This document shows positions 1 through 28,171 of a DNA stretch of 28,171 bases, piece after piece. The DNA is from Saccoglossus kowalevskii (lineage: Eukaryota; Hemichordata; Enteropneusta; Harrimaniidae): assembly GCF_000003605.2 (NCBI RefSeq), contig NW_003113970.1, positions 165,799-193,969 of the forward strand. Reading direction: 5' to 3'. Each line of letters opens with the position of its first letter. The stretch's first letter is position 1. Position numbers and translations under genes: made by a program. Under the pieces are notes generated by a model that saw only the letters and a list, made by a program, of their open reading frames with translations, was not told the DNA's origin and made no database searches.

Positions 1-32
1 TTTCACTATAGGAGCTCAATCTTGTGTTCCAG

Positions 33-359
33 TGGTGGTTATACCTTTCCCTTTGGTGACATCAACGGCAGGATATGAATCCATATTGAACTGCAGCTAT
101 ACACTTCAACCGTGTAATGCAGAAAATAAACAATTGAGTTGGTTCGATGGTAACAATACGTTAATAGTAACCAAACTCAATGATAATAACCCAGTTTATC
201 ATAATACAGATTTGTTTGGAAATTTTACACTGATCGGAGATAGCGATTTACATATATCCTACACAGAATACAAGCACGCTGATATTTACAAATGCGCGGT
301 CCAATTATTTCACCCTGGCTTCTCCTCAGATAGTGGGAATGTGACATTACTAGTACAAG
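33..359 (+). CDS. Exon: Ig domain 1 of the receptor
   Basis: Acceptor TTCCAG ends at 32 and the donor GTAATT starts at 360; both ends are phase 1. Ig landmarks are Cys in ILNCSY, Trp in LSWFDG and Cys in ADIYKCAV. Several N-x-S/T sequons are present. No signal peptide is seen, so at least one exon lies before the window. Confidence 0.85.
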
Positions 360-3300
360 GTAATTTTATTTTATTTTATTTTATTTTATTTTATTTTATT
401 TTATTTTATTTTATTTTATTTTATTTTATTTTGAAGACAAGTACAATGTATACTATATTTTTCCGCAGCCCCACAGCCCCCTTATGGGACCCAAATAACA
501 GTTAATCGCAACCCAGCGATAGAGGGCGATATAGTACGTATGGTATGCACAGCAGAAGGCTCCCCACAGCCAACGTATCAATGGTACAAACTGGGTGGAT
601 ATTCTCCTGTTGATGAACGTTATACATTTAATGATGATGGAAGTGAATTAATAATTAATCCATGTCTGCGTAACGACACTGGATCATACGAATGTACTGC
701 TGTGAATGATGAAGGCACTGACAGTACCTGGGTATTTCTTGATATATATTGTAAGTAATATATTTATCTCAGTGAATGAAGGGTTTTGTAGAGCATGGCG
801 AGATGGGAAAGAAACCGCCTTATCAAAATACCCCTTAAACGAGAACGGCTGTGAAATTATTGCCCATATCAGAGCACTTTCTAACTTTCTTCTCTTAATG
901 GTTAATAAAACCTAGAAGAAAGGTAAAGCAGAAGGACAGTGGTTTGAGCGTTTTTTTTTGGCATTTATTTGTTGTTATAAGTCTTATCTTGTGTCAAAAC
1001 AGTAGCTTGGAGACATTGTGCTATATGAAATTGAGTGGGATGCTTGCGTTTCTGTCTTTCAGATGAGCCTGTATCCCCTTGGCCAAATTGTAGTGTAGAT
1101 CCAATGAATAACACTGAATATTTAGAAGCCGGATATGACATCACAATTGTGTGTGAAGCTTCTGGCGGTAATCCTTATCCATACCTAGTATGGTATAACG
1201 GAACTGATCGATTGCCTGGAAATTATTCCACACCATCAACGGGCGACGACAATGAAGTCACAACTAATGAATATTCTTGGATGTTAGATAAATACGATAA
1301 TGGTAAATATTATCGTTGCCATGGTGACCAAGCTGTCTCTGGTCAAGAACAATGCTACACAGATCAGTTAGATGTTAAATGTAAGTAACTTTGTACACAA
1401 GTGTGAACGTACTTCAGTTTAGATTCAACTGTAGTCAAAAGCATTTTTTGATTTTTAGTTGTTAAAACATACGTGTATAATATTTTTCCAGACTCCCCTG
1501 AAACCCCTTCTTGTACAGACCTCACTCGTGATAGCTACGTTGAGGGCAGTGTCATCACAATTACTTGTGAATCTACCGATGGTAACCCATTAGCAACACT
1601 GAGATGGTTGAACGAGACAGACGATACAGTCATGCTGTTGACAACCCCAATGCCCGGTGATGAGACAAGTACTGCAGTGTATGAATGGGTAGTGAGTAGA
1701 GTCGATAACCATGGAAGCTTCAGATGTGAAGCTGTTAATCTTGTACAGTTAGATCCGTTGATATGTACTACCGGAAGTGTAGATGTTGTTTGTAAGCAAC
1801 TAATGTATTATCTTTAGTTTAGGAGATTTACATGGCGAATTTAACATAACCGCCATTGTGAAATTATAAGTATATCAACAAACACGTTTAAGTCATCATG
1901 TGAATTACATATTTAAAAAAAGTATTCTGTATGATATTATTTTAAAAGTTTCGCCTACGTCTGTGGAATTATTTGGTTACGAGAGAGCCGTGAATGCAGG
2001 TGATGATACAATCCTTACATGTGAAAGTGGGACCAGTAATCCGAAGTCCAATATAACATGGTTTAAAAACAACACGCTCATAGTGGAGAGTGAGTACGAA
2101 GAATGTGGAGAAGAATGGTATAATGCCGGTGACTACTACGGTATTGTCACCAGACAAGATATAATCATACACTTAACGGCGCAACATAATAGTGCTGTGT
2201 TCTACTGTTCTGCTAATAATAATATTTACGACATTGTGATATCAAATAGTAATACACTGGAAGTATACTGTAAGTAAACTTGCTTTTTATTCAATCAGGC
2301 CACCTTTTCTTGTTTTTCTCTTGTGATATGGCCCTGTGACAGCAACACAATTAAATGACATTGGCTTTACTCTTTCTCGTAAATGTCATTTTTGCGTAAC
2401 ATAACACTTTATCGCCTTAAATCCTTAGTCACTAATCACTTTTAATACCCATTTATTTACTTATTTTGAATACTGTTGCAATATACTTATATACTTCATA
2501 ATTTAAGCTATTAATTTAAATTTGATTAAGCATGTTGCGTTAGTTAATTACTTATCATCTAAAGTTATGTTATTACCAATTTGCCTATATTTTTCATAAT
2601 GTGCATAGTAAGGCACAGTAACTTTTTAAGATTCATTAATTACCAAACACTAAACAACTAATTACAACTGGAAATAGTTCATTCTGCAGTGAAGTTTTCC
2701 AGTGAACATGTTTAGCAAGTATAATGCCGTGTCTTTCAGTTCCACCATCAGAGCCAGATGGTTGTCGTACAAGTCTTACTGGGTATAATGGTTATGCGAC
2801 GGCGGGCGGCGAACTAACATTGACGTGCACATCGTGCAGCAGTAATCCACGGTCCCGGATAATGTGGTACGTAGACGGTAGCGAGGTGCAGGACGGACTC
2901 AGTGAACCCGGGTATACCCATGCCGAATACAATGGAGTGAGAACATCGCAAGACCTATCTACAATATTGTCATACCTCCATCATGCAGTGACAGTATGGT
3001 GCGAGTGCGTCAACGAGGTTTATCCTGACGATTCACATCCGTCGGATCACATCACGCTGGATGTGCATTGTAAGTATAGACATAAACAAATTACGTTCCT
3101 TGTGTAGCAGCATTTCATAATCTCATGGTTTGGCGACGTAGCAAACGTTGATTAGTTAAAATTTAAAATCCCACATGTAACATTCGTTTATAACGTTGTA
3201 ACTACGTATACTCGTACAATACATTGATCGTCTCACTATATATAATTCGCTTTATTATATATAATTACATATTATATATGGACGTGGTAATCAATTTTAA

Positions 3301-6300
3301 TTTTTTCATTCGATAAATTTACAAAAAGTTGTATTGCTTGTTTTGAGTTACATTGTTACGTTACCCTGGTAACGCGATATGCGTCTAGTACAGTCAATGT
3401 ATTGAATAACTTCGTGTATAGACCTCAAAATCCCAACGCAAACTTATATATTATTTACTGCCTTCTGTTAATGGGACGTTACTAGTTACTTTATATAGTG
3501 TAACCTACCTTAATTTGGGTAATATTCAAAATTATTCACAAATCAATCAGAAATATTGTCGTGATAAAAATAAAAGTTGATTTTTTTCTTTTGATGACAA
3601 CATAAATAATTTCAGTTTTGACCTTTGATAACCAATATTTATCAGAAACGGAAAATCGATTGATTATATTTCAAGAAAACGTTCAAGAAAAAGTTTTGAT
3701 CTACATTAAAGTAGCAATGTTTAAATAATTTCTTTGATAACAATATTTTTTTTTGTAAAGATCACAGGTCATGAACGAAAACTGCGATGTTGCCAGAAAC
3801 GTATTTAGCCTAATATTAACATTATTTAAATGCTTACAAAATATTCGAAGTTACATAATTTATCACTTCAACAAACACACCACGTCTCTCGGCAAGTCTT
3901 TATAATAGTTGTGCTATATGTATTGTTAGTGCCTAGCACCAATGTACAAAGGTCAATATGTGATACGGAGATTAAGTCATAATTGACAATCTTATTTTTA
4001 TTTTATATTGTTGGTAAATTCAAAGTTGGCTACCCTCCTATACGCTTCCAACACGCACCAAACAAAATACTGTTTGTCTAATAAATAACGGGAAAATCTC
4101 ACATGCATAATTGCTTACCATTAAAGATGGACCGTTCGTAACGAACATAGATGAAACACGATCACGAGCTAACGAAGGAGAAATTGGCAATCTGACATGT
4201 GTGGTCGATAGCAACCCAGATGGAAGTATCACGTGGTACAATCCGGAAGATGAAAAGATTATCAACGGAACCGAAGGACGAACTATAGTGGAAAATAAAG
4301 ATGACACAATACGCGTGAGCAGATTGATAATAGAGGATGTGACCCGTGCAGATTATGGAAATTATACTTGTTGTGCCGAAAACTATATCAATACAGCACT
4401 GTTTGTCATTGAACTTAATGGATTGAGTAAGTTTATTCGTATCAAAATTATCGATTGATTTATCGATTAATTAAAGATTAATTCACTCATACATACTGAT
4501 TCTTCATAATATGTGATTCATGTGTAGCTAGCCCGCAGGCGGCACAGAATATTGAAGTAACAAACCGTACAGAAAGTTCTCTTTCACTGAAGTGGGAACC
4601 CGGGCACGATGGAGGCACGCAACAGTTATTCTTCTTAGCATACTCTGCTCTTGACAATGCGAGTGATACTGGTTATGTAGATCGTATCAATATCACGTGG
4701 AATAGAACAGATTATACGTCGAACAACTACGATACCATATATGGCCTTGAGCATTCAACATACTACGCTGTCGTTGTTATTAGCCAAAACACAATAGGAT
4801 ACACGCCAAGCGAAGCTGTTACTAATTCCACATTGCGTAAGTTGACTGTCATAAAAGTTACTTTGTAATGTGAATGAACATATATGTCTTCCAATATAGA
4901 ATATTACTATTTCCTTGCTAAATAAAACCTTTTTTTTAAATTTCAGCAAATAGTGATAATGGTGAGTATTGTTTTTCGATTAATTTGTATTTCTGATATA
5001 TTTTTTATTTGGAAATTTAAAAAAGATATATTATACTTTCTTTAATATACATAGTATTGGTACTCATACAAAGTTTCAATGTGAGAAATCTGATACTAGG
5101 GGTTCATTACTACTTCTCTTAGGGAATCATTTTTGAAAGACAATTTTTGGGTGATGACATTGACTACGTAAATAAAGATATAATTTAATCACGTTTTTTC
5201 ATTCATTCTTGTTTATTTAATATTATACATGTGATAAATTATCATGTTATTCTCCATCTATATTATTATAGATTCATTAAACTTGATGTGATTTTGTTTT
5301 ACCTAAATTTTGGGCTGGTTGTAACTGATTGTAGCTTTTAATAATTGGATGAATTACATTTGTATATACATACAGACTGAATGACATCAATAATGATACA
5401 TTATAATTTACATTTTCTATAGGACACGGTGGGTCATATGCGAAACACTTAACCGTATTATTGCTTGTTTTAATAATCATAGTGTGTATAATCGTGATTT
5501 TGTTTTATAAACGAAAACAAGCAACAGTTGAAAGTAAACAAGGTAGGTATGCAATTTGGTAGTCGTTTCAAATGAATATAATATACAATCTGTGCAATTG
5601 GATCTGTTTTTATTGTTGGGATGACTATTGATATAGAACATACAGACTGAACTGTTTTTTTTTTCAATTCCATACTACGCAAGATGAAGATGAAGTAAGG
5701 TAAGCGTGAGTATTCAAATATCAACGTTCATATTCCCAATCTGACACGCATCGCGGTGACTGCACACACAACCCGTGTATACTATAGCATTTAATTCGTT
5801 AGTGCACGATGATGTTAACTTTTATTTTCTAGAAACTATTGAGCATACGTGGCTGAGTTGATAGATTGACATAATACATTGATGGAATGCTGCTGTGTTT
5901 GTTTGTTCGCTTTTTCAATTTAATTTAATTTAATTTAATTATATTATTTACATGTTCAGACAACAACTGTTAATCTCAATATTTTAATGTAACACATCTC
6001 TGATATTACTCATTTAATTCCAGAGAGTCTGACTACATGGATCTTAACACACTTAATGAAGAGTCGACATACATGAGTCTGAGTTTCAATAATCCTGGTA
6101 TGGTAGCCTGTGTTATTTGCCTTGCAGATATTGCGTTCAATTTCGAATAAATGTAAAATTCAATCAACATAACACTGTTCTTTCATTTTTTCAGGTGTAA
6201 TAACAAGTAAGAACATGGATAGTGCTTTGTCTAAGGTAGGAATATACAAGTAAATGATTCCGAAATAATAATACCGCGTTTACCATGGAAATACATTGAA

Positions 6301-8343
6301 GATATGCTGTTTGAATACATTTATAATCTATTTGTATAGGCGACAGATTGGGAGGTACCGAGATCGAAAGTGACATTTATAGAACACATTTCAAGTGGAG
6401 CATTAACACATGTTATAAAATCACATATTTTGTCTGAGAATGGTCAGAAGGAAACAGTACTTGTAAAATTGTTTAAAGGTAAGTGTCAATCTATGTGTTC
6501 GGTTCAAAGGTCATTAGCAGAGTAATATAACTGATTATATACTTGTTATTTAATGATTTTTAGATAAGGAAACGGAAATGAATAAGGTGTGTTTTGTGAA
6601 AGAAATTGAATTGCTCAAGGGACTCGATCATCCCAATGTTATAAGAATGGTTGCCTGTTGCACAGTCCAAGGTGAGATAACCCGTGTTACTGTTAGGAGA
6701 AATGTGATGCAAAGAGTTTGGTAATCAGTTCGATTCTTATATTATATGTATAGGTTTGTGTGTGCCAAACAACATAATAACCGCACAATAGTATGTGTTA
6801 GGAGTGTTATTTACTACAGATCCCATTCTTCTTGTATTGGAATTCTGCGCCTTCGAGAACCTACGAAGTGTTCTTCGTGAATATCGAACCCAGGTGGATC
6901 CCGGAAAATTGTATCCAGACACCCCTGAAGAGTTTGACAGGACGGACGAATTTATAACATTTGGACTTCAAATTGTGCGTGGATTGAAATATCTTGAAGA
7001 AAATGAGGTAAATTACAGACAGGAATGTCTGACGTGTTCCCAGTGAGTGTGGTGACGACTGTATAAACATAAGTTCTAAAACAAAGCATATTTGCATATT
7101 GAGTACAATTATCAGACTAGCAGAAACCATATATAGACAAAATATGAACAACTGCCATTACACGTGGTAATTACAAGCTATTTCCATTCATAGGAAATAT
7201 TATTGTGGATGTTTTCGTGCCTCTTCACCAGATCTTACATATGTATACATGATACTGTGATTTTTACTTCCAGTGTGTTCTCCGATTCTTTTCCGCAAGA
7301 AGTATAATGGTTGGTGCAAACAAAATATGTAAAATATCGGATTTAGAATTCTCAACCTCTGTTATGAATGAACATGAATTTGAAACTACAACAAGTGTGA
7401 GTACGAACATGAATTTACACCTATTTGATTCAATACTATAGTATGCGCAGGTCGTTAAACAATGTCTAACAATTTTGCCCTGACTATGAATTGGTTCGCC
7501 TTAGTGGATGTACTCTCACGTTTGATTTGGACACATAAATGTATATACAGTCTGATCACAGTCCCATCTCACTAGAAAATTCTGTATTCTGACAATGTAT
7601 TACATAAACTGTGAAATTACTTACTTTTCAGGATCGTCTACCATTGCGATGGATGGCGCCAGAGTCGTTGCTGGCGTGTTCTTACACTGTCAAGTCAGAT
7701 ACTTGGTCGTACGGAGTAGTCTTGTGGGAAATATTTCATTTTGGTAAGGCACAATAATATTTACAAATATATTATTGCAGAAAACGTTATCGATTAATGC
7801 TGCTACTAATACTAGTATTTTATAAAATTGACTTTAGGTGAAACTCCATATACGGAATTGGTTGTTGTTGACCTTATCAATGAGCTACAACGTGGGTACA
7901 GAATGCCTGAACCGAAACATTGTCATAAACATATGTAAGCTATTTCAACGAGTCTGGTCGAATACGTTCACATCAGTTAGTAGAATGAAATTTCAGTTTG
8001 AGATATAAAGTGAACAATCGAACAAACGAGCGAGAATGAATAAATGAATATTCAATAATGAATTTATCATTTCAGATACAATATTATGCTGGATTGTTGG
8101 CGACAAGCGCCATCTGAGAGACCAACGTATCAAGAAATAATATTGAAACTTGGAACTAAGCCACATGTAAGACTTGTAAGTAGAAACTAGCAACGTAGAT
8201 GTTTTTTATGTTTTCACCGGCATACTCGTTGTCAGCCAATTATCTGGATTAATAACAACAATAATATATGTTTTGTATTGCTCTAGGCTGAAGAAGTATC
8301 AAATACCCAAGATGCCGACTGCAAGTTTACAGATGTTATATGA
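33..8343 (+). CDS. Ig/FN3 receptor tyrosine pseudokinase, 21 exons, 5'-partial
   Basis: Predicted single-pass cell-surface receptor. Exons: 33-359, 469-750, 1063-1380, 1492-1791, 1949-2269, 2740-3069, 4127-4426, 4528-4836, 4947-4961, 5423-5542, 5684-5699, 6024-6097, 6195-6235, 6340-6478, 6564-6671, 6820-7007, 7274-7396, 7632-7743, 7838-7934, 8076-8175, 8287-8343. All junctions are GT-AG and every phase matches, giving 1224 residues before the stop at 8341. The signal peptide and start lie upstream of the window. Order: seven Ig domains, FN3, transmembrane helix, ITAM-like tail, kinase domain. The kinase keeps its structural landmarks (WEVPR entry, LVK lysine, WMAPE, DTWSYG, CW-x5-ERP) but has LRF for HRD, Ser for the catalytic-loop Asn, DLE for DFG and a degenerate glycine loop. 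Seven Ig domains plus a dead kinase recall PTK7, but the FN3 domain and ITAM do not fit PTK7. The kinase is closest in style to VEGFR/FGFR-type kinases. Exon structure is inferred, not transcript-verified. Confidence 0.9.
360..468 (+). repeat. (ATTTT)n microsatellite filling an intron
   Basis: About fourteen near-perfect copies of the pentamer run from about 363 to 433. They start three bases after the splice donor and take up most of this 109-bp intron. The rest is a short acceptor region ending TTTCCGCAG at 468. Length is likely to vary between individuals. Confidence 0.95.
469..750 (+). CDS. Exon: Ig domain 2 of the receptor
   Basis: Phase 1 at both ends; the donor GTAAGT starts at 751. 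Ig landmarks are Cys in MVCTAEG, Trp in YQWYKL and the DTGSYEC signature, a classic I-set/C2-set F-strand. The domain runs to about LDIYC. The following 312-bp intron (751-1062) shows nothing beyond an AT-rich spacer and a CTTTCAG acceptor. Confidence 0.9.
1063..1380 (+). CDS. Exon: Ig domain 3 of the receptor
   Basis: Phase 1-1 exon after CTTTCAG, with donor GTAAGT at 1381. Landmarks are [16 protein letters not shown] and YYRCHG. It shares the CEAS-GNP pattern with Ig4 and Ig5, which suggests these domains arose by tandem exon duplication. Confidence 0.9.
1492..1791 (+). CDS. Exon: Ig domain 4 of the receptor
   Basis: Phase 1-1 exon after TTTTCCAG, with donor GTAAGC at 1792. Landmarks are [16 protein letters not shown] and SFRCEAVN. 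It closely matches the Ig3 exon in the pattern around the first cysteine and in the closing V-D-V-V/K-C residues, consistent with exon duplication. Confidence 0.9.
1949..2269 (+). CDS. Exon: Ig domain 5 of the receptor
   Basis: Phase 1-1 exon with landmarks [18 protein letters not shown] and VFYCSANN. The acceptor TTTTAAAAG at 1948 has a poor pyrimidine tract but is the only one that keeps frame and phase. Donor GTAAGT starts at 2270. The following 470-bp intron holds no recognisable exon. Confidence 0.88.
2740..3069 (+). CDS. Exon: Ig domain 6 of the receptor
   Basis: Phase 1-1 exon after GTCTTTCAG, with donor GTAAGT at 3070. Landmarks are [18 protein letters not shown] and VWCECVN. The SNP-RS motif parallels SNPKS in Ig5, pointing to a close duplicate. 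It has extra cysteines next to both conserved ones (CTSC and CEC), which could form a second disulfide. Confidence 0.9.
3070..4126 (+). other. Largest intron of the receptor gene (1057 bp), no exon seen
   Basis: AT-rich with many stops in all frames. No Ig-like Cys/Trp pattern, splice-bounded reading frame or obvious transposon was found. It separates the six-exon Ig block from Ig7 and the membrane-proximal part, so regulatory elements are possible but none is recognised. Confidence 0.6.
4127..4426 (+). CDS. Exon: Ig domain 7 of the receptor
   Basis: Phase 1-1 exon. Landmarks are [18 protein letters not shown] and [12 protein letters not shown], a strong I-set F-strand signature. The acceptor ATTAAAG at 4126 is weak, but frame and phase fit. 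Donor GTAAGT starts at 4427. This is the last Ig domain before the FN3 module. Confidence 0.9.
4528..4836 (+). CDS. Exon: fibronectin type III domain of the receptor
   Basis: An open phase 1-1 exon with no ATG at its start. It encodes an FN3 fold: [13 protein letters not shown] (B-strand Trp), FLAYSA (C-strand), a [17 protein letters not shown] stretch carrying the E-F-strand Leu and F-strand Tyr, then [13 protein letters not shown]. Membrane-proximal FN3 after Ig domains is standard for adhesion receptors and several receptor kinases. Acceptor ATGTGTAG ends at 4527; donor GTAAGT starts at 4837. Confidence 0.88.
4947..4961 (+). CDS. 15-nt microexon (stalk) of the receptor
   Basis: A 15-base exon between TTTCAG (ends 4946) and GTGAGT (starts 4962). 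It is phase 1 on both sides, so it is symmetric and can be skipped without changing frame. It would add about five residues (A/x-N-S-D-N) to the extracellular stalk. The sites are good, but the exon is too short to confirm without RNA. Confidence 0.6.
5423..5542 (+). CDS. Exon: transmembrane helix of the receptor
   Basis: Encodes about 23 hydrophobic residues starting [11 protein letters not shown] and ending VILFYKRKQ. The basic stop-transfer KRK marks the cytoplasmic side. Phase 1-1; acceptor TTCTATAG ends at 5422 and donor GTAGGT starts at 5543. It fixes the topology, with Ig/FN3 outside and kinase inside. Confidence 0.9.
5684..6235 (+). CDS. Juxtamembrane exons with ITAM-type motif
   Basis: Three small exons. 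The first, 5684-5699, is 16 nt (phase 1 to 2) and encodes the acidic DEDEV. The second, 6024-6097 (phase 2 to 1), encodes ESDYMDL then TYMSLSF. The third, 6195-6235 (phase 1 to 0), encodes [13 protein letters not shown]. The second holds YMDL (6034-6045) and YMSL (6070-6081) with exactly eight residues between, matching the ITAM consensus YxxL/I-x(6-8)-YxxL/I, with Glu three residues before the first Tyr. In known receptors, phosphorylated ITAMs bind the tandem SH2 domains of Syk/ZAP-70 kinases. The two YxxL motifs could instead act as AP-2 endocytosis signals. Confidence 0.8.
6340..8343 (+). CDS. Pseudokinase-domain exons and C-terminus of the receptor
   Basis: Eight exons encode a whole tyrosine-kinase-like domain. 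Key sites: glycine loop SSGALT (6391-6408) with two of three glycines lost; beta-3 lysine in VLVKLF kept (6466-6468); alpha-C Glu in VKEIELL kept (6602-6604); hinge [11 protein letters not shown]; catalytic loop [11 protein letters not shown], aligning with CVHRDLAARNI, so Asp is Phe (7286-7288) and Asn is Ser (7301-7303); DFG is DLE (7340-7348); APE kept (7656-7664); DTWSYG and [10 protein letters not shown] kept. The activation segment has no tyrosine (EFETTTS). The tail is short, ending KFTDVI before TGA. Intact frame and splice sites argue for a functional pseudokinase rather than a decayed gene. Confidence 0.9.
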
Positions 8344-11145: not shown

Positions 11146-12085
11146 TGAAATCTTAAACGTGAATGCCACTTTAGACATTTATTTCATTTTCTATGTAAAA
11201 AACGAAACAGATTATAAACACGTGTATACTTACAATAAGCAGCATCGACCGGTTAGACGAGTCCATGTACACGATACATGACCGACGATTTAGCCTTGCA
11301 AACCTGTCACTCGAAAAGTAACTACCTATAAATTTACGCCGAAAACGGACTTACACACATCTCGAAAAAATGTTGGAATAACTTGGATTTAAACCATAAA
11401 TTGGAAATCAACCATACAACTAAAAATACGTTGATCATACACGCGAAATATTAGTAATAACACGGGGTTACGCAGTAATCCAATCAAAGACTCGGAAAAG
11501 TCGTCTAAGCAACGTCTTGCTTGGCGATTTCTGAAATCCTTCCAACTTGATGTTGTTATTATCAGTGTTCACTAAGAAAATATTACGATCTATGTTTAAA
11601 AATACGATTATGTTAGGAAAAATGTTAGGTCCGTTGTTATTGTGATAAGTATGGTCATCGCAGAAGTACAATTCACGAGGCGAAAGTGAACAACGGTAAG
11701 CGTAATATAATAAAGGTTTAGTATTATTTCGCTGTGGTCCTAAGTTGCTCGAAGTGAGTTACAAGAAACACTGTATTTTTAAAGTGCCTGTTGCATGCCC
11801 ACTGACACGTTTCCCACTTTAGATCTGTGTCCCATTGAAATGAATAGTTTATTGATTTTGTTGTTGAAAATGATTACTCGTATCCACTGTTTCCGGAGTT
11901 CCGACTCTCGCCGAAGTTTAAGTGCGCCACCAAATGCCAAAGATATGAGAGGAAGCCATACACTTGAGTCTTACTTTTATAACACTGCATCTTTCAACAT
12001 ACTTTTAAACGATATTCATTTTTCGGTCGGCGTTTTTTCTCTATTTCAATTTGAGAGAGATAACAAACATTCACAACAAACATTT
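11146..12085. other. Stretch with no recognised gene
   Basis: No reading frame with a recognisable domain and no clear repeat was found. If the THAP exon downstream belongs to a spliced gene, its first exon should lie here or further upstream. I could not identify a Cys-x4-Cys start exon. Confidence 0.5.
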
Positions 12086-12349
12086 ATGATGGTAAACTTA
12101 TGCGTATAACCAGAGTGAGTATTCATGCGTTTCCAATCGATCCGAAGGTGCGACATCAGTGGACGAAAGCCGTGAAAGCAACGCGAAAAGGTTGGGATGG
12201 ACCTTTTTCTTACAGCGTCATATGCAGTGTCCACTTTACCTCAGATTCTTTTTTCGTTAAAACTGTCCTCGTTCATGAAAGAACAACTAGGTTTTAAAGA
12301 GGAGCGCCGGCAACTTAAACCTGGTGCAATATATACCAATACTTGTTAG
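12086..12349 (+). pseudogene. THAP zinc-finger exon, frameshifted
   Basis: Encodes much of a C2CH THAP DNA-binding domain. RVSIHAFPIDPKVRHQW, then KAV and YSVICSVHFTSDSF, match the family pattern (x-SFHRFP, invariant Trp, C-x2-H-F). Matching sequence continues in another frame after a run of six T (12249-12254): MKEQLGFKEERR and QLKPGAIYTN correspond to the family's C-terminal basic and xxPxAxPT region. Removing one T would restore continuity. The first Cys pair is missing; MMVNLC at 12086 may be a remnant. A possible acceptor ending at 12113 just before VSIHAF sits where THAP genes often have intron 1. THAP domains occur in host regulators and in P-element-type transposases. No transposase follows here. 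Confidence 0.7.
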
Positions 12350-14756: not shown

Positions 14757-15225
14757 AACGGATAGATATACTTCTATAATCTTGACGAGTTAAAATAAGT
14801 AGATCACGTACACATAACAAGAGCACGCCATTCTTGTGGAGTAGTTCGCATTTAGGTATATTGCATCCTTTAGCCGCCCGAGAAGTATGTATCAATAATT
14901 GTATAATATTAGGCTGATCTGTAAATGACATGCCTGGAGTCGATCTTCAGTGATGGTCATTTGACGACTATATACTCGATAATTCAATATTACAATTACA
15001 GTCAATTAAGGATTACGGCGGTCATGGCATTGACAAGCTATCTTGCAAAGTCAATAAGGTCTCGTCATTTGGTATTTGAAAATAACTTTGTGGTGGATGC
15101 AGATGTTACTCAGGTGTCAATGTATGTCACATATCATACGATCTTGATACAACGCCACAAGTCGCCATGAATAAAAATGTTTTTCAAACCACATGTCCTA
15201 TGCATCTGATGTTAAAGAGCGGTAG
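14757..15225. other. Stretch with no recognised feature
   Basis: Only short reading frames without domains. It lies between the MITE and the first solo LTR. Confidence 0.5.
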
Positions 15226-15732
15226 TCGTCTGTCACACGCAACGTAATATTACCGTAATTGGTATAGTACAGGTGTGATGGTTCAAATACCAACATGGCA
15301 ACAGTAACAGAAAGACTTCCCTGGCGGCGATGATAAAGTACGAACACGGAGCCAACAGATGAGGTTTCAACTGGTACTGGTATTATTATACTCTGCAAAC
15401 ATCAAGTACAATATCGCGGTAAAACTCCACTACTCCAATAACTAGATACTTAAATACAATTCAAAGAGATCTCCGATCTGACCTCAGTGCTGAACAACTC
15501 CCCTATATATACCCCCTCTGTCTATAAATAAACCATTACATCAGCATACATAATGAGTCTGGAACTTACTACAAATTTCTAGAATGTTCCATTACCTTCT
15601 ATTGCCTATAGTGTTTTATTACCTATTCAACCAGTTTCTAAAAAAATCTAGAATATTCCACCCAGACACAGTACAGTTCTAGAACATTCTCAGTGACACG
15701 GAAGTTGTAAATAAGTCGTATGCGACATCGTC
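15226..15732. mobile_element. Solo LTR, copy 1, with TCGTC target duplication
   Basis: A 497-bp unit at 15231-15727 starts TGTCACACGC and ends TGCGACA, the TG...CA form of LTRs. It is flanked by an exact 5-bp repeat TCGTC (15226-15230 and 15728-15732). It closely matches copy 2 at 19902-20408. It contains two perfect heat-shock-element-like arrays and one shorter one (see separate entry). A TATATA core near 15504 lies downstream of those arrays when read on the minus strand, which suggests the LTR's transcription direction is minus. No primer-binding site or internal coding region adjoins it, so it is a solo LTR. Family (Gypsy, BEL or other) is not determinable. Confidence 0.87.
15577..15689. 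promoter_or_regulatory. Heat-shock-element-like arrays in LTR copy 1
   Basis: TTC-TA-GAA-TG-TTC at 15577-15589 and TTC-TA-GAA-CA-TTC at 15677-15689 are perfect three-unit inverted nGAAn arrays with 2-bp spacing, the heat shock factor consensus. GAA-TA-TTC at 15651-15658 is a two-unit site. On the minus strand all three lie about 70-190 bp upstream of the TATATA core, a normal promoter arrangement. Binding is inferred from the consensus only. Confidence 0.65.
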
Positions 15733-16700: not shown

Positions 16701-17707
16701 AACAAACAAATAAATAAATAAATAAGTTTATTCTCCTTATTATAACCAACACAATAATAAAATCAAAAACTAAAGACAATGCAAGCACGTAAGTGAGAAT
16801 AGGATCGGAAAATAGCCGTCAAGTGACAGCTAATCTAGTCTGTTCCTATCTTTTTAAATAGTCCTAATAATTAATTATTAGGGCTTGTCAGAGAAAGAGC
16901 GAAAAAAAAATATATATATTATATACATTTTATGTACAAGAAAACACTAAGTTAACTATGTATAAAAAGATATGTTTTTTATTCTTTTAAATATGTTTCT
17001 CGTCTGTATAGATATAATACGAGTCGGAATTTAGTTTAATATTTTCGGGCCAATATATTTTATAGAAAATTTACCACATCTTTTCTTAACTTTGGGGAGA
17101 GAAAGATTACATTTGTAGTAGTGTTTTGTGTTATATTTATGTTCAATCTGAGCGAAGTCGTTGTGACAAATTGGTGGTAATCTATCATAAAGTGCATCAT
17201 GCACTAAGGTTCCAATTTGTAGAGAATGTTGTTTATAAATATCTAAAATGCCTAATTGTTTAAACAAAGGTGCTGAGGGTGTATTGTAATTCCTAAAGGC
17301 GATAATGCGAACAATGTATGTTTTGTATACGTAAAATGCAGGTGACAATGATATGTATTTCCCCAAACCTCTAATCCATAAGAAATGTGGGGAAGAATAA
17401 ATGTGTTGTATAACAATATTAATACTGACCGTGGAACTAAAAATCTGAGCTTAAAAAATATACCTGCTAATTTATTGAATTTTTTTTCTAGTGATATATG
17501 ATGTCTGATGTTTATCAATAGTAATTCCAATGTAATTAATACTACATGTTTCACTCAATTGGTCACTTTTAAGATTGAATTCACCCTCAGTTTTGATTTT
17601 TGTATGTGTATTGGCAATAGACATGTAATTTGTTTTATCGGAATTAATAATAAGTTCGTTTGCATCACACCACAATACCACCTTTTGAAATTCACAATTC
17701 AGAGCGT

Positions 17708-17947
17708 TTATGTTGATTTGTTAGATTTGTTTTGAACTGTGTGGAAATTAATGGAGTAGTCAGCATATAATCTGAAGTTGAAATGGTCAGTGGATTGTGG
17801 TATGTCATTTATAAATAACAAAAATAGTATGGGCCTTAGAATGGAACCTTGGGGTACTCCACATGTAATTGGCAATGTTGGGGATTTAGTGTTATAAATA
17901 CAAATATACTGATTCCTTGGTGTCGAATAACTTTTAAACCAGGACAA
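17708..17947 (-). pseudogene. LINE reverse transcriptase fragment with broken YADD
   Basis: Contains the RT palm motifs GVPQGS and FINDIP, then LYADYSINF where active enzymes have F/YADD. The second catalytic Asp is Tyr (minus strand, about 17757-17768). The preceding WFKSY motif is cut from its upstream part by a frameshift. It cannot be active. Confidence 0.85.
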
Positions 17948-19382
17948 GGCAACCCCCTATACCATAATGTTGAAGTTTTGCAATTAAGATACCGTGGTTC
18001 ACTGTATCGAATGCTTTAGAAAAATATATAAACATTCCAATTGTTGCATTACCTCATCCATTTCAAATAGCAAATATGGAATTACGCTAATGAGTGAATG
18101 TTTGCAGCTATATTTTTCCCGAAAGCCATATTGATGTTTGTACAGTATATTATATTGTTTTTAAGTAGTTCATCAGGCATTTATTTACATTTTTTTCTAT
18201 AATTTTACTGATGATTGGTAGGATAGAGATTGGTCAAAAATTCCCCAGATTAGATGTATTACCTTTTTTATAGAATGGGATGACTCGGGCCTTTTTAAGA
18301 CAGTCTGGAATGTAACATAATGGCTGCAAAATTTCACTCATAGCATTCCTTATCAATCTTGCACTGATTCCCTTCCAACCTGCCGCTTTTTGAAGATCTA
18401 ACCGGATAATTTCAGTTTAGATATCATGAACAGTTACTGGAATAATGATTGGGTAGTTCGTTCCCCTAGAAAGTTGTAGAACATGCTATTATTGTTTGAA
18501 GTTATTTTATTGGCTAACTTTTCGCCAATTGTAACGAAAACTCATTAAAGTCATTCGCAATATTTTCTAAATTTGTGTGTATAATTGGTGCGCCATTATA
18601 ATCCAGCTTGACTTCGTTTGGTATAACTAATTTCGGTTTGGATTTTGCCAATGAGTTCATTGATTACTTCCCAGTTCTTGTTCAGAGTTCCTTTATTAGA
18701 GTTGAATAAATATGTGTAATATTGTTGTCGGGCTTTCCGTAGTAACTTGTTATAGGTTTATCTTTGCTCCGTTGTTTGCTGACTTTTTTTAATTTCATAG
18801 GTGCATGCTCATGACATATTTTAAAAAAAAAATGTCGTTGAATTTAGATCTAAATAACTTCACTTGGAATTTGGAGAAATCCCGGGAATACATATAATTG
18901 TTATCATTATGAAGTGGCAGTAGAGGGGAACTGCAAAATCCGGCTGGTGATCAGAAAGATCTGAGATAATAGTACCTGAAGAAATATCGGTTTTGCATAT
19001 ATCAGTGTATATGTGATCATTTATTGTATGGCTTGTTTTTGTTATTCTTGTTGGGGTTTTGATTAACTGTTCTAGGTGGAAACATTACAGTGTATTGAGA
19101 AGGAAGTTCACTTTGGGGTTAGAATTGTTATTCAGGTCAATATTGAAATCTCCAACTAAAATACAGCCATTGTATTGTTTTGATCTCATTCATTGTAATC
19201 TCAAGATTTCTGATAAAACTGTCAATTTGTGTAGCTGGGGGACTATACAATACTCCAACGATGTATTTGTGTTTGCCAATAGAGATTTCTATAAACAAAG
19301 ACTCTGCATTATTGACACGAACTGAGTTCTGAATGTAAATGCCTATCCCTCCACCTCTTCTATATCATCTCTGCAATTTGTT

Positions 19383-19571
19383 TCATAAGAATAATTTGTT
19401 AAACTGTAAATATTTTTTGCTTTTAATTTGCCAGATTTCAGTAAGTGCAACAATACTGAATTGATGTTTTATATAATTTTCATAAAATAAATTAAAATTG
19501 TCATAGTTAATTCTAAGGAACCGACTATTAATGAGATATAGAGAATGTGTCGAGTGAATTGGAGAATTCAA
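19383..19571 (-). pseudogene. LINE endonuclease N-terminal fragment
   Basis: NYDNFNLFYENYIKHQF followed by SIVALTEIW matches the start of AP-like endonuclease domains of CR1/Jockey-group LINEs, where the TE-W motif includes the metal-binding Glu. Downstream parts continue in other frames, showing frameshift decay. Confidence 0.8.
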
Positions 19572-19896
19572 TATTTAACTGGGAATGGTATATGACGAAC
19601 AGTGAATATTGAATAATTGGGGATCATTATCATCTTCCATGGTTAGTTATATATATAAACAGTATAGTATATATTTACAAGTAATTTAAACTATTTTTGA
19701 AATGTCAAACTCACTCTTGATTATAATATGTGGTGTACCATCTGCCTTTCTAAATAGACTTGACCATTTCTTGTCCACAGAAATCTGTAATTGATAGCTT
19801 TGCGTTTAGCACTGGCTAATGTCAGTAAATTTCCACCAGTTGGTGTCAGATTTTCATTGATATATATTTTACTCTTTTCTCTATACCCTTGATTGT

Positions 19897-20413
19897 CTGT
19901 GTGTCACACGCAACGTAATATTACCGTAATTGGTATAGTACAGGTGTGATGGTTCAAATACCAAAATGGCAACAGTAACAGAAATACTTCCTTGGCGGCG
20001 ATGATAAAATACGAACACGGAGCCAACAGATGAGGTTTCAACTGGTACTGGTATTATTATACTCTGCAAACATCAAGTACAATAACGCGGTAAAACTCCA
20101 CTACTCCAATAACTAGATACTTAAACTCCAATACAATTCAACAAGATCTCCGATCTGAACTCAGTGCTGAACAACTCCCCTATATATACCCACACTGTCT
20201 ATAAATAGACCATTACATCAGCATACATAATGAGTCTGGAATTTACTATAAATTTCTAGAATGTTGCATTACCTTCTATTGCCTCCTACAGTGTTCTATT
20301 ACCTATTCAACCAGTTTCTAAGAAAAATCTAGAATATTCCACCCAGACACATTACTGTTCTAGAACATTCTCAGTGACACGGAAGTGGTAAATAAGTCGT
20401 ACGCGACACTGTG
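19897..20413. mobile_element. Solo LTR, copy 2, with CTGTG target duplication, nested in LINE
   Basis: A 507-bp unit at 19902-20408 starts TGTCACACGC and ends CGCGACA. It is flanked by CTGTG at 19897-19901 and 20409-20413. It has the same sequence and orientation as copy 1, with scattered substitutions and a short insertion (extra ACTCCAAT-like segment near 20125). It lies inside LINE ORF1: the ORF1 frame runs into it from above 20413 and resumes in frame below 19897 if the LTR and one target copy are ignored. Heat-shock-like arrays are present, one perfect at 20358-20370, while that at 20254 has lost its third unit. Confidence 0.87.
20358..20370. promoter_or_regulatory. Perfect heat-shock-element-like array in LTR copy 2
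   Basis: TTC-TA-GAA-CA-TTC is preserved exactly as in copy 1. The neighbouring two-unit GAA-TA-TTC at 20332-20339 is also kept, while the array at 20254-20266 has TTG in place of its last TTC. Confidence 0.6.
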
Positions 20414-20757
20414 GTTATCTGATTTATTTTCTTTCGGTCACGGTACACTTCATCTCTTTTTCTTCGTACAGCGAATTTAACAATTATAGGTCTTGGCCGA
20501 GGTTTTTTATTTATTGCGCCATTTTTTTCTGCTGGGATGATCTTTCCTATTCTGTGGGTGATTTCAATATCCCTTGATGTCACATTTGGAACAATCTTCT
20601 GTATAACTTTAAGTGATATTTCATCGGTACTTTCAGTTGTAACTTCTGGTATGCCATGTATTTCTACGTTGTCTATTCTACTATACTGATTTTGTTCTTC
20701 ACTGGCCTTTTCTAAGACAGTAATATGCTGAACAAGATTAGCGTTACAATCTTCCAA
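20414..20757 (-). pseudogene. LINE ORF1 fragment (RNA-binding protein)
   Basis: From 20757 down, the frame encodes a coiled-coil-like stretch (NLVQHITVLEKASEEQNQ), then EIHGIPE, EITHRIGK and RPIIVKFAVRRKRDEVY. These are hallmarks of the RRM-like nucleic-acid-binding ORF1 of LINEs. The N-terminal part continues further up (about 20990-20770) in another frame. The frame enters the solo LTR at 20408. Confidence 0.85.
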
Positions 20758-20990
20758 TTTCTTATTCCTTTCTACTAGTGTGATGAATAATTCTTTTTGA
20801 TTTTTACAATATCATTAAGAAAGCCTTCATTTCTCTCATACTGAGTGTAAGTTCATTTATACAGCTTAGTTGACGGCTGATGTCATTCAAACGATCTTCA
20901 CTTGTTGGGAGTACAAATGTGTCATCCCCCACTTGACTAACTCCCCGAGTAGTACCACAATCTTAGCACGTTTTTGGCACTGTTCTAACA

Positions 20991-23727: not shown

Positions 23728-26027
23728 ACCTGCCATGGAAGAGAAAATACTCCCGAATGTTTTGAGTCGTACTAGAAACACGCCATTGGTGAGAATCAAT
23801 AAACTCGGTATCGATGCTGTTTTGAAATGTGAATTACGTAAGTACCACTGATCTCAGTATTGGTTGCCTGATCCTTGATTAAATCAACTGCAGAATAATC
23901 ACAAAGTTGGCCTTGCATTGAGTGCATTGACATCAGTGATGTGAGGTGATATGACACACATTGTCTGCATAAAACTATTGAAAATATGTTGTATTTTTAG
24001 AGAGCGCTTATGAAGTACAATAGGCAGAGTTGTAATCCACTCATCATTAAATCAACCAGCTATTGTTGTGTGGTAGACACTGTAGCTGACATTCCAAAAT
24101 ATGGATTACGATCTTTAAAATCATAGTATTGGCTTATTTGTGTTCACTATATCGCATTACGCGATACTCTGCCGAACATTAATTTTGATAATTTCATGGT
24201 CGTGAATTCAAATTGCGTGTTTTGTATTTACACAACACAATATACCTTTAATTTATATTTACCACCCCAAAACGACGACACTTAATTAATGATCATCAGG
24301 CGCATGCGTTGGAGGTATTTCACTTTCGGTTTATCAACGCACACATGATGCAATATGGAAAAAAATAGACATATATTTGCGACAGACACTACATTCTTTC
24401 TTTTAAAAGATAAACCACAGACCGCATCGTACGCGGGCTCCGAACAGTTTGATTCGTATCAGAAACTGAAATCGCGTCTTTCGATACAACATTTTACAGG
24501 CCATATAATTAACCAATCAGGGGGTCGTTAATTTTGGCCAATCATATGTGATATAAATGATTTGACCTATATACTCTTTATGTTTATTAGTTTTGTTGAC
24601 TCTACGTAATAAACGCTGTTGCTGTTTCCTATTGGACTGGTTGTATCTGTTTGGTAATTATCGTCGAACCGCCTTCGAATACTACTGTTTTTTCATACTG
24701 TAATACACGTGAATTTCGCCGCACACGGCAGGATAGTGTTATCGGTGATATCACGTACACATAATTGTTCAAACGTGGTTGCAGTATTGTTTAGGATTAA
24801 CAAATTGTACGTTTAGCGTATACATCATGAACATATATTACAGGCATTTTATAAGTTGTTTGCTAATTTATTTAGTAGTGGCAACAACTTTAACAACAAT
24901 ACTTTAACCTTGAGACACATCTCTTGTAATCACGTGATCATGCCAATGACTACATTGACTGACTGCATGTTTACTCTTCCACACTTTAAAGTTTTACTGT
25001 TGAGTTTGTAACATTTGGTAACAGGAGAATGAGAGAAGAGGACAGCGAGGCTTGACCTCAGCTGACGGTAATGAAGGCCGTTGAAGCAACAATTAGTTGG
25101 TCCGGCCATCCATCGAGGGTCCAGGCCCGAGGCGTATGATGACGTTTGCTAGGAGGGACGTGTAAAAGTGGTCCGGCCATAGCCGATATGGCTGGTACGG
25201 TTCCTACGGTCTTGCGGTTTAGCCGTAAGGTTTATCTGTAATGAACTAATGTGTATTTCTTTTGGTCGAACCTGGTATCTTCGTGTCAGTCTTATCAGCC
25301 GACCAAGTCAAAGTTTACAACAGAGAGTTCACAACAATAGAATGTTTGAGGTAATGGAGGTAATGGTAATAGATTCATCAAGCAAGACACAAGACGATCT
25401 TCAAACTTTTATATCAAAGCTATCAATAACTATGCCGCCGACTGATAGCAGATACGTCTTTATTGTTAGCTTCAGAATTATAAAAAAAGATGAAGGGTTG
25501 TCTTCTTCAACATGCTCGAAGTATTTCAACTTAAGTGGGAACCGTTTCGTTAAGATTGAAACAGTAGTAACAAAATAATAAATACACCGACACATCTACG
25601 AAAACCGTTTACGTTGCTATGCGGAAAATCCAAGCGAGAATGGAATTTGTTTTAATTACTATGTCAAAGCTATCTCTGAACCCAGGCCAATTAGCGACCA
25701 TTGTCAATGCAGTATATGCATAGAGACAGCACATTTCAAGGTCTTCAGAACCCTAATATGGGAATGCGATGCAATGTGTAATCGGGAAAGTGTTCACAAT
25801 TTGTATTGTATCCACAGACTGGCATACTTATCAATATATTCATAAACTAATCAGTTCCTGTTTTTGAATTTATTATGATTGTTTTTATTTGTTTCAGTGG
25901 CTAAGTGTGAATATTTCAATGCCGGTGGAAAAAGAAAGAGTAGGCAGAAGAATGATAGAAGATGCTGAGGAAAAAAGATTAATTAAACCTGGTGACGTGA
26001 TCATTGAACCAACAGCAGGGAATACAG
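23728..26027 (+). pseudogene. CBS: Cystathionine beta-synthase, two N-terminal catalytic exons, frameshifted
   Basis: CBS condenses serine and homocysteine to cystathionine using PLP. Exon A (23728-23837) encodes MEEKILPNVLSR then NTPLVRINKLG and LKCEL, matching the start of the catalytic core (human-type KILPDIL, TPMVRINKIG, LKCEL). Its donor is C/GTAAGT, phase 1. Exon B (25898-26027) continues in phase with [11 protein letters not shown], then switches frame to [13 protein letters not shown] and [16 protein letters not shown]. Five bases are missing between GG and the PLP-lysine codon (family: GGSVKDR), so the frame breaks at the active site. Acceptor TTTGTTTCAG and donor GTACAA are intact. 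No further CBS exon is seen up to 28171. It is either a young pseudogene, a null allele or a base-call error. Confidence 0.8.
23838..25897 (+). other. CBS intron with a GC-rich structured block
   Basis: This 2060-bp intron is AT-rich except for about 25030-25230. There TGGTCCGGCCAT occurs twice (25099 and 25171). Two short hairpins are possible: GCCATA/TATGGC, and CTTGCGG with CCGTAAG around 25211-25230. A GCGCATGCG site lies near 24300. The open frame at 25249-25578 resembles nothing I know and is not called a gene. Confidence 0.45.
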
Positions 26028-28171
26028 GTACAAGTTCCATTATTGTCTTTAAGCAATTCCAGTTCGTTGTTACCATATGAGCAGTTTTAATATTATTTTC
26101 ATTTTCTAATCAGGCTTTTTGGTACGTAAATAAATAAATTCATAGCTTACGAACTTTACACTGCCAAGTTGCGATGACTATGGTATTTTGTGTGAACGTG
26201 TCGGATGGTTGTATCCGATTTTGCTTTCATTTGTTAAGAATAGCCACATACTCGTCATCACCAATAGCCACATACTAATATGGGGTTATTTCGAGGATAC
26301 TGCAAAATATGCTTAAAGGCAGTACAGCAGGAGTATCGACCGACGGGCTACGAAGGTTGATGCGATCGTGTGATATCTGGGTGCATACTTTGTTGTATCC
26401 TCGTAATAAGCTTATTATTATACATCTTTTCCTCCCAGGAATACATCATAGGAATGCCGAAATCAAAAACGTTTACAACAGTTTTAGCGAACTTCTTTCT
26501 GTGGGGTCTGGTCAAACCCTGGGGCAGTCCTGTTTTTGTTATTATTAGAGGACGATTACGCGCGTAATCGTTCCGTATTTGGAATTCGCTTTTCTAATAT
26601 GGTATGATGAAAATACCCCGTAAAATACCACCAAATTACAACACGCTGTAACATATGGCGTTACGGTGACAGATGTATAATAATGTTATTCAACCCCACC
26701 CCAATTACCCTTACCCATTCACTACTTTCAATTACTCACCATAGACTCCGGTCAGTCAAAATGACTATTTTGAACTGTAGACATTAATCAGCGATTCTGC
26801 CAATGACGGAGAGATAAAATCTAGGTCATGACCCCAAGATTTTTGTTTTCTTACGTCACGAACAACGTGACACCTTGACCTTCACTCTTTCTTTATCTTC
26901 GTATCAATGGGGATGAAGTCTAGCGGCTCTGCCTGGATAGCCTGCATTTTCCTGTCTGCGGCCAGCGGTAGCCAACACTGTGGCTGGTAGAATAAGTTTT
27001 TCTTATTTCCTTCCCCCCGTGTTGATTCCCCCTTTGTATGTATAGTTTTTCAAAACAAAGAAAATAAAACCCGGCGACACAACTTAACCACGGCGTTGGT
27101 TTTTGTTGTGTCACCTTTTCCAACTGTATTTAGCTTCCCTCATGCATGTTGTATTTATTTTCTGCTTTAACAATGTATTTAGAAATGGTCCTGTTGATAA
27201 TACGGACAAACATGGTTCTGTGACCCAGGTCGTGCTCCGATCAGGTGACTCTCAGCCAATCAATGATGTTGTAACAAAGCATATTTGACGCTAATTGAAG
27301 GGTCGTCGTACAATCCAATCACCGGCGTCGATTCACATAGTTTTTTGTGCTGTGACAGGCTTCAAAATTATTCGCTGAAAAACATATATTTTGACAAACT
27401 GATGGAATTTGACCTTAGTTCAAAAGAAAATACTAGGCTAAGATACATTAGAGTTCACGCGAATCAGTTTTCTCTGCAAGCTGTGAAATAAAGTAAACCA
27501 GAGTAGCGTCGATGATTTTCAGCCCTGAAGGACTTCCGTGTGAATCTCGAGTTTTGAATTGTTCATCGACTGGCCACCAAATAGTTATGGCTATAACTAA
27601 ATTTGACACGTTTTTCTTTTAAGCCCAATAAATTATTCATACATGTCAAGCTCTGTTCGATTTTTTCAGGGCATGTGGCCGTTTTTAGTCGAAAATATTT
27701 TTTGTGGGAACACTTTTGCGGTACGTATACAGTATAGACCGAGCTCATTCAATGATCGTGACTTAATTTTAAAAATTTTATGTCAAATTTTACCAGACGT
27801 GGACCGATGTGGATTCGGTATCGTTATTTTTGGAATTAATCACTAACATTTCCTCGTTTCTCTCTGCTCTGTCAAAAGGAGTTACCTAGGCTTTTACATC
27901 TACAGTTTGTATATTACATCTAGAACAAGCACCCAAAACACGTAACAAGAGGTCCCAGTTCAGTTGCTTTCACGATACAAGTGTCATACAACTACTAGAT
28001 TTGAAGTGTCGTACATAATTTAATAATAGTTAATACTAGTTGTATGTTCACACTTTACTATCAAAACCACCATTTCGACCACCCATGTGCCAGTTTTCAG
28101 TGTTTGGGCGAGCGGTCAATGTTTTCAATGAGCGAGCGAGCGAAAAAAAAAACGCGATTAAAATGCGGTCG
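26028..28171. other. No recognised gene to the end of the window
   Basis: If CBS continued, the next catalytic exon should encode the family's GLALAAAV and MPEKMS region, which I do not find. A hairpin with arms GGCGACACAAC and GTTGTGTCACC (10 of 11 pairing, 27072-27112) and GAGCGAGCGAGCG near 28130 are the only notable local structures. Confidence 0.5.

Follow-up and report, generated by a model that had tools for sequence, protein, structure and literature searches.

A predicted receptor pseudokinase with an ITAM-like tyrosine pair, and kinase-less siblings, some with inhibitory-type tails, in the acorn worm Saccoglossus kowalevskii

The window analysed here is a 28,171-nucleotide stretch of the Saccoglossus kowalevskii genome (NCBI RefSeq assembly GCF_000003605.2, contig NW_003113970.1, positions 165,799 to 193,969), and a receptor gene occupies bases 1-8343 of its + strand. 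The gene comprises 21 exons, whose positions follow from open frames and the splice consensus rather than from transcripts; every intron has GT..AG borders, and the phases are continuous (Table 1). Its product of 1235 residues is open to a TGA at 8341-8343. The first base of the window already lies within the first exon, and the 30 kb upstream contain 11,539 N that end at the window; the signal peptide and start are missing because of this assembly gap. In P0150, a relative whose N-terminus is complete, the first Ig domain aligns with Ig1 of the window gene, so the seven Ig domains found are probably the whole set.

Table 1. Exons of the receptor gene, numbered from the first base of the window
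Feature	Position	Strand	Basis
Ig1 exon (N-terminal part of gene in upstream gap)	1..359	+	V-set below cut-off
Ig2 exon	469..750	+	Pfam
Ig3 exon	1063..1380	+	below cut-off alone
Ig4 exon	1492..1791	+	Pfam
Ig5 exon	1949..2269	+	Pfam
Ig6 exon	2740..3069	+	Pfam
Ig7 exon	4127..4426	+	Pfam
Fibronectin type III exon	4528..4836	+	Pfam
15-nt exon	4947..4961	+	frame/splice consensus
Transmembrane helix and start of juxtamembrane region	5423..5542	+	by eye and hydropathy scan
16-nt juxtamembrane exon	5684..5699	+	frame/splice consensus
ITAM-pattern exon, YMDL at 6034-6045, YMSL at 6070-6081	6024..6097	+	translation
Juxtamembrane exon	6195..6235	+	frame/splice consensus
Kinase exon, degenerate Gly loop, VAIK Lys kept (VLVKLF)	6340..6478	+	alignment
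Kinase exon, alpha-C Glu kept	6564..6671	+	alignment
Kinase exon	6820..7007	+	Pfam
Kinase exon, HRDLAARN degenerate, DFG = DLE, activation-loop Tyr lost	7274..7396	+	alignment
Kinase exon	7632..7743	+	alignment
Kinase exon	7838..7934	+	Pfam
Kinase exon, kinase domain ends here	8076..8175	+	Pfam
Last exon, C-tail and stop	8287..8343	+	frame

Pfam matches the whole protein to PK_Tyr_Ser-Thr (E 2.5e-70, residues 940-1208), to several Ig models and to fn3. Exon by exon, five of the seven Ig exons pass the curated Ig cut-off alone, while the matches of exons 1 and 3 to Ig models fall below it (best E about 1e-4) and the fn3 exon matches at 1.4e-8. No other locus examined, paralogues included, gives a significant match to the FN3 exon. 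A first-pass annotation, whose span 5684-8343 runs from exon 11 through the stop, had described a layout of seven Ig domains, FN3, a transmembrane helix, paired YxxL motifs and a kinase domain without the catalytic Asp; the 21 open exons bear this out, and Pfam returns Ig, fn3 and tyrosine kinase domains from the spliced protein.

The remainder of the window holds unrelated features. Exons resembling cystathionine beta-synthase were read by eye at 23732-26038 on the + strand (Pfam PALP weak, E 0.0026), with an apparent frame break at about 25920, after NAGG; the break may reflect damage to this copy or a misassembly. A THAP domain at 12064-12297 on the + strand (Pfam E 6e-9) is possibly transposon-derived. 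Remnants of a LINE-type element lie at about 17031-20811 on the - strand, where RVT_1 matches 17708-17956 just under the cut-off (E 2.9e-6) and the rest was read by eye. At 15225-15727 and 19895-20408 lie the two copies of a direct repeat, each about 510 bases long, in the same orientation and with 93.8% identity.

The window protein has the build of a receptor tyrosine kinase, with extracellular Ig and FN3 domains, one transmembrane helix and a kinase domain, but the hallmarks of an active enzyme are replaced: HRD reads LRF (LRFFSARS for HRDLAARN), DFG reads DLE, and the Gly loop GxGxxG reads SSGALT (ISSGALTHV), with two of three glycines lost in comparison with FGFR2 and other receptors. The activation-loop YY reads EF. 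The VAIK Lys, the alpha-C Glu and APE are kept. Because the HRD Asp is lost, the gene is predicted to encode a catalytically dead receptor tyrosine kinase, or pseudokinase, which may still be able to bind nucleotide, since the VAIK Lys and the Asp within DLE remain.

The window gene belongs to a family with six further genes of the same genome or species. HRD is lost in all seven (LRF in the window gene, LRV in C4032, IRT in P0004, VRA in C1372, LRS in C2031, IRI in C2478 and VRT in P0150), which agrees with the first-pass statement that the catalytic Asp is absent. Kinase identity to the window gene is 43-56% for C2031, C1372 and P0004 over 147-264 columns. In a kinase tree with several partial rows, the window gene, C4032, P0004, C1372, C2031 and C2478 form one clade (FastTree support 0.90); P0150 was placed outside the tree by similarity (49% to C2031). 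The nearest outsider is the Ptychodera flava receptor pseudokinase P0107 (HRY, NFA; support 0.89), followed with weak support (0.52) by C2189, C665 and C1241. In C2189 and C665 (loci L030 and L032) HRD is intact and the DFG Asp is lost (GFG), and the corresponding exon of C1241 is unread; catalysis thus appears to have been lost by a different route in this neighbouring group. The window gene's family was encountered in this analysis in the acorn worm only, and viral contigs scanned with P0004 yielded no relative.

The gene models behind this family differ in completeness. The C1372 locus (L024) encodes, in eight exon pieces, 265 of the 290 residues of the NCBI protein P0001 of S. kowalevskii, all identical, and most of the remaining residues would lie past the end of contig C1372. 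Near GEMPYP this locus shows an apparent frame break after the W-E-I-F kinase exon, read by eye, which could be sequence error or decay. For P0004 and P0150, which NCBI names as S. kowalevskii proteins, the genome assembly contains no exact locus and is therefore incomplete or different; P0004 is a partial automatic gene model with no transmembrane helix and could be chimeric. Both P0001 and P0150 end in a C-terminal YVN, which we take to be a Grb2-type site. In a separate set of nine proteins that resemble receptor kinases, mostly Mytilus by name (P0172-P0174, P0176, P0178, P0181-P0184), HRRLAARN stands in place of HRDLAARN, and these are likely a further set of receptor pseudokinases, in mussels.

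A passage of PMC6433993 gives the ITAM consensus as YxxL/I(6-12)YxxL. The window protein carries YMDL-x8-YMSL on the cytoplasmic side, in its juxtamembrane region and within a single exon, so it shows the pattern YxxL/I-x6-12-YxxL/I and is, by sequence, a candidate member of the functional ITAM class. The strict pattern arises by chance in 0.15% of shuffles of the 59-residue juxtamembrane segment, in 2.4% for the cytoplasmic part and in 19% for the whole window protein; the pattern alone therefore means little, and what counts is where it lies and that it recurs in paralogues. An argument from pattern alone was rejected, as the strict pattern turns up in 18 of 149 proteins, most of them PDGFR-type receptors that have it within the kinase domain. 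A homologue survey covered 190 sequences including the window protein, of which 94 had a recognisable transmembrane helix and kinase motif; among these, a YxxL/I pair with spacing 6-12 between the two is present in the window protein only. The 96 sequences skipped for want of either feature include the Saccoglossus gene models P0001, P0004 and P0150.

The juxtamembrane region is readable in five of the seven family members (that of C2478 is mostly N), and four of these five have the pair: YMDL-x8-YMSL in the window gene, YMDL-x10-YEEL in P0004, YMDI-x10-YARL in C1372 and YMQL-x10-YMTI in C2031. C4032 retains YMDL only, its second tyrosine being lost. All four pairs have an acidic residue one to three positions before the first tyrosine, and the C1372 pair is present in 2.2% of shuffles. 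The first-pass description of a "perfect" ITAM thus holds for the window gene, with its spacing of 8, and does not extend to the other three paired genes, whose spacing is 10; both values fall inside the 6-12 consensus in the cited part of PMC6433993. Conservation is likewise partial: within the species the pair recurs in four of five genes and HRD loss in seven of seven, whereas C4032 and the more distant P0107 lack the pair, P0107 having no YxxL/I pair between the transmembrane helix and the kinase domain. An FN3 domain read by eye in P0107 was also discarded, since Pfam finds none at E 0.1. C2189 and C665 have two juxtamembrane tyrosines, YEDL-x9-YLKH, with the second +3 Leu absent. Because these HRD-intact genes already have two tyrosines, the pair may have grown from ordinary juxtamembrane sites.

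In the three genes with both exons read, the small exon pair that codes for this region measures 16 + 74 nt (window gene), 16 + 86 nt (C1372) and 31 + 89 nt (C2031); each pair sums to a multiple of three and neither exon does so alone. The C4032 motif exon, 49 nt with an uncertain acceptor, departs from this rule. Skipping the 74-nt exon alone would shift the frame, which is kept only when exon 11 is skipped along with exon 12 (90 nt in all), so an ITAM-free isoform of the window gene is possible by double skipping, and likewise of C1372 (102 nt) and C2031 (120 nt).

Searches with P0004 and P0150 also reached kinase-less genes: C4204 and two copies on C3851 have the same Ig series as the window gene, followed by tails without a kinase domain. 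C4204 (L070 and L073, C4204:11101-22000, no N) has Ig exons, a transmembrane exon (LILIIVDIILVYFIRREDW) and three tail exons that are mutually in frame to a stop and contain IAYADL and TEYASI, an ITIM and an ITSM-like site. Its phases demand one more small exon between the transmembrane exon and the tail, comparable to the 16-nt exon of the window gene, which was not found, and the 10.9 kb read contain no significant kinase match. The C3851 copies a and b share 89% ectodomain identity. In copy b (L072, C3851:84301-90300) the transmembrane exon is joined in frame to two tail exons that run to a stop, and the tail ends in IQYADI ... TEYATL, again an ITIM and an ITSM-like site. In copy a (L071, C3851:63501-69500), the first tail exon (3157-3359) reads YYEL-x7-YTSL, where the matching stretch of copy b reads QQKQ ... 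ACSD, and the second (from about 3498 on) has a stop before the YAD motif, with the second ITSM-like tyrosine gone. The two copies therefore look opposite in type on a nearly identical ectodomain. Shuffling produces an ITIM along with an ITSM-like site in 0.4% of trials for the C4204 tail and in 0.09% for the C3851b exon; the pair of copy a occurs in 4.9% of tail shuffles and is weak. No kinase match to C4204 or C3851 was among the matches listed, nor does a kinase match of weight lie in the 6 kb that follow each C3851 copy.

An ectodomain tree of eight genes was built from Ig3-Ig7, with P0004 represented by Ig3-5 only and C2891 without Ig7. C1372, a paired pseudokinase, groups with the kinase-less C3851a and C3851b, and P0004, also a paired pseudokinase, groups with the kinase-less C4204 and with C2891, whose tail is mostly N and unreadable; both groups have support of 1.0 in FastTree and 100% in IQ-TREE ultrafast bootstrap. 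The window gene and C2031 fall outside both. Ectodomain identity is 53-54% between C1372 and C3851a/b and 74% between the partial P0004 model and C4204, whereas the window ectodomain is 44-47% identical to the kinase-less genes and 44% to C1372 or C2031. Tail types thus cross the ectodomain groups, which implies that tails have been exchanged or have changed repeatedly. This interleaving hints at the pattern of activating and inhibitory paired receptors.

The window gene most likely encodes a dead receptor tyrosine kinase that works as an immune-type receptor, recruiting a tandem-SH2 kinase and opposed by inhibitory siblings, a reading whose chances are put at just under even. In ITAM signalling, both tyrosines are phosphorylated by a Src-family kinase, after which a tandem-SH2 kinase docks. 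Ligand binding to the Ig/FN3 ectodomain would cluster the receptor, and both juxtamembrane YxxL/I tyrosines would be phosphorylated, either by a Src-family kinase or by a partner receptor that is active. The doubly phosphorylated motif would then dock a tandem-SH2 kinase of Syk or Shark type, with the pseudokinase domain staying as a fold for dimerisation or docking. The kinase-less siblings with ITIM/ITSM-like tails would oppose the receptor via an SH2 phosphatase. Contig C93 carries a kinase exon that is presumably of Src type, judged by its signature, and C208 carries a two-SH2 stretch; KWYAPE, which we take to be the Syk signature, is absent from the loci examined, including 11 kinase stretches selected from 158 matches. 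According to a section of PMC10253181, only one Syk-like gene is present in invertebrates, alongside SHARK, and Draper/Shark and MEGF10/Syk use ITAM signalling outside lymphocytes according to a section of PMC8092387.

The same tyrosines could instead be ordinary docking sites in a receptor of ErbB3 type. An active receptor tyrosine kinase partner would then phosphorylate them in trans, and single-SH2 adaptors would serve as readers in place of any Syk-type protein. The similar pair of the HRD-intact C2189 and C665, which has no second +3 Leu, favours this reading, as do the variation in spacing between 8 and 10 and the C-terminal YVN of P0001 and P0150. It is nevertheless rather unlikely, since the +3 Leu/Ile is kept at both tyrosines in all four pairs despite kinase identity of only 43-56%, and all other usable sequences of the survey lack the pair. 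That the motif is a tandem ITIM or a YxxPhi endocytic signal, recruiting SH2 phosphatases or AP2 so that the receptor is dampened or internalised, is improbable. In its favour, the Ser at -2 of each window tyrosine matches the broad ITIM pattern [IVLS]xYxx[ILV] as well, a YxxPhi motif close to the membrane is an AP2 signal, and the siblings have ITIM-like tails. Yet the -2 residue varies among the relatives (N/S, S/P, P/A) though the tyrosines, the +3 residues and the close spacing are conserved, and the ITIM/ITSM-like sites of the siblings are far apart and differently worded. Decay, in which the gene would be a degenerating paralogue and the motif incidental, is very improbable: many window kinase residues are lost and relatives in the same genome are damaged (C4032 in one tyrosine, C1372 by the apparent by-eye frame break downstream of its HRD exon), but the window gene is open across 21 exons with consensus splice sites, its kinase domain still matches Pfam at the E value given above, and the motif recurs in homologous exons.

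The reading of a recruited-kinase receptor can be widened to the family, as a tentative and somewhat doubtful proposal. A paired immune-type system may have evolved in acorn worms, independently of vertebrates, from a receptor tyrosine kinase. One arm would be the kinase-dead ITAM receptors; in the other, the kinase would have been swapped for ITIM and ITSM-like tails (C4204, C3851b) or an ITAM-like tail (C3851a), with tails exchanged between ectodomain lineages.

Receptor pseudokinases, ITAMs and ITIM/ITSM tails are each known already, and what may be new is their combination. No report of a receptor tyrosine kinase that contains an ITAM, or of Saccoglossus ITIM receptors, was among the matches listed from the open-licence PMC literature, and within that scope the first-pass remark that no receptor with this layout has been described agrees with the present result. 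ITAM signalling is usually regarded as a property of kinase-less receptors. If the proposal is true, a dead kinase beside an ITAM, accompanied by inhibitory-type siblings, would occupy an intermediate position in evolution between receptor kinases that signal on their own and immune receptors that rely on a recruited kinase. It would sit in a phylum close to the chordates and hint at a paired on/off system outside vertebrates, and the origin of ITAM/ITIM pairing would become directly testable in a laboratory marine animal.

Several known systems share parts of this layout. ErbB3/HER3 and other receptor pseudokinases resemble the window gene in retaining the kinase fold with the catalytic Asp lost, and those of ErbB3/HER3 type must be phosphorylated by others; unlike the window gene, ErbB3/HER3 has another ectodomain, and to our knowledge the type has no such paired YxxL in the juxtamembrane region. 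PTK7/CCK4 has seven Ig domains, a single transmembrane helix and a pseudokinase domain, as the window gene does, and we know of no FN3 domain in it. Identity with PTK7 was rejected, because the window gene has FN3 and groups away from C1939, a locus whose kinase (HKD, SNL) presumably reads like PTK7, in a tree that holds no named PTK7. FGFR identity was also rejected: FGFRs are the best PDB matches after a top-ranked EGFR chain, yet the window clade stands apart in the tree. Membership in the FGFR or PDGFR-VEGFR groups fails likewise, as C4443 groups with a Capitella FGFR-like protein and the window clade stands apart.

Vertebrate paired receptors carry related Ig ectodomains on activating- and inhibitory-type tails. 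The acorn-worm family differs in that one tail type keeps a pseudokinase, and the comparison made here is one of layout. Fc gamma RIIA has an Ig ectodomain and, unlike the window gene, is a vertebrate leukocyte receptor without a kinase domain; orthology is not claimed. Its single-chain ITAM, given as YMTL-x12-YLTL in a passage of PMC6433993, is close in wording to YMDL-x8-YMSL. The tails of C4204 and C3851b resemble ITIM/ITSM tails of PD-1/Siglec type: TEYASI fits the ITSM consensus TxYxxV/I stated for PD-1 in part of PMC11599192, and TEYATL nearly does. Draper/MEGF10 differs from the window gene in its EGF/EMI ectodomain and in having no kinase domain, and is like it in being a receptor that bears an ITAM; in the relevant section of PMC8092387 a Src kinase phosphorylates this ITAM, with Shark or Syk as its reader, the course that the window receptor would follow.
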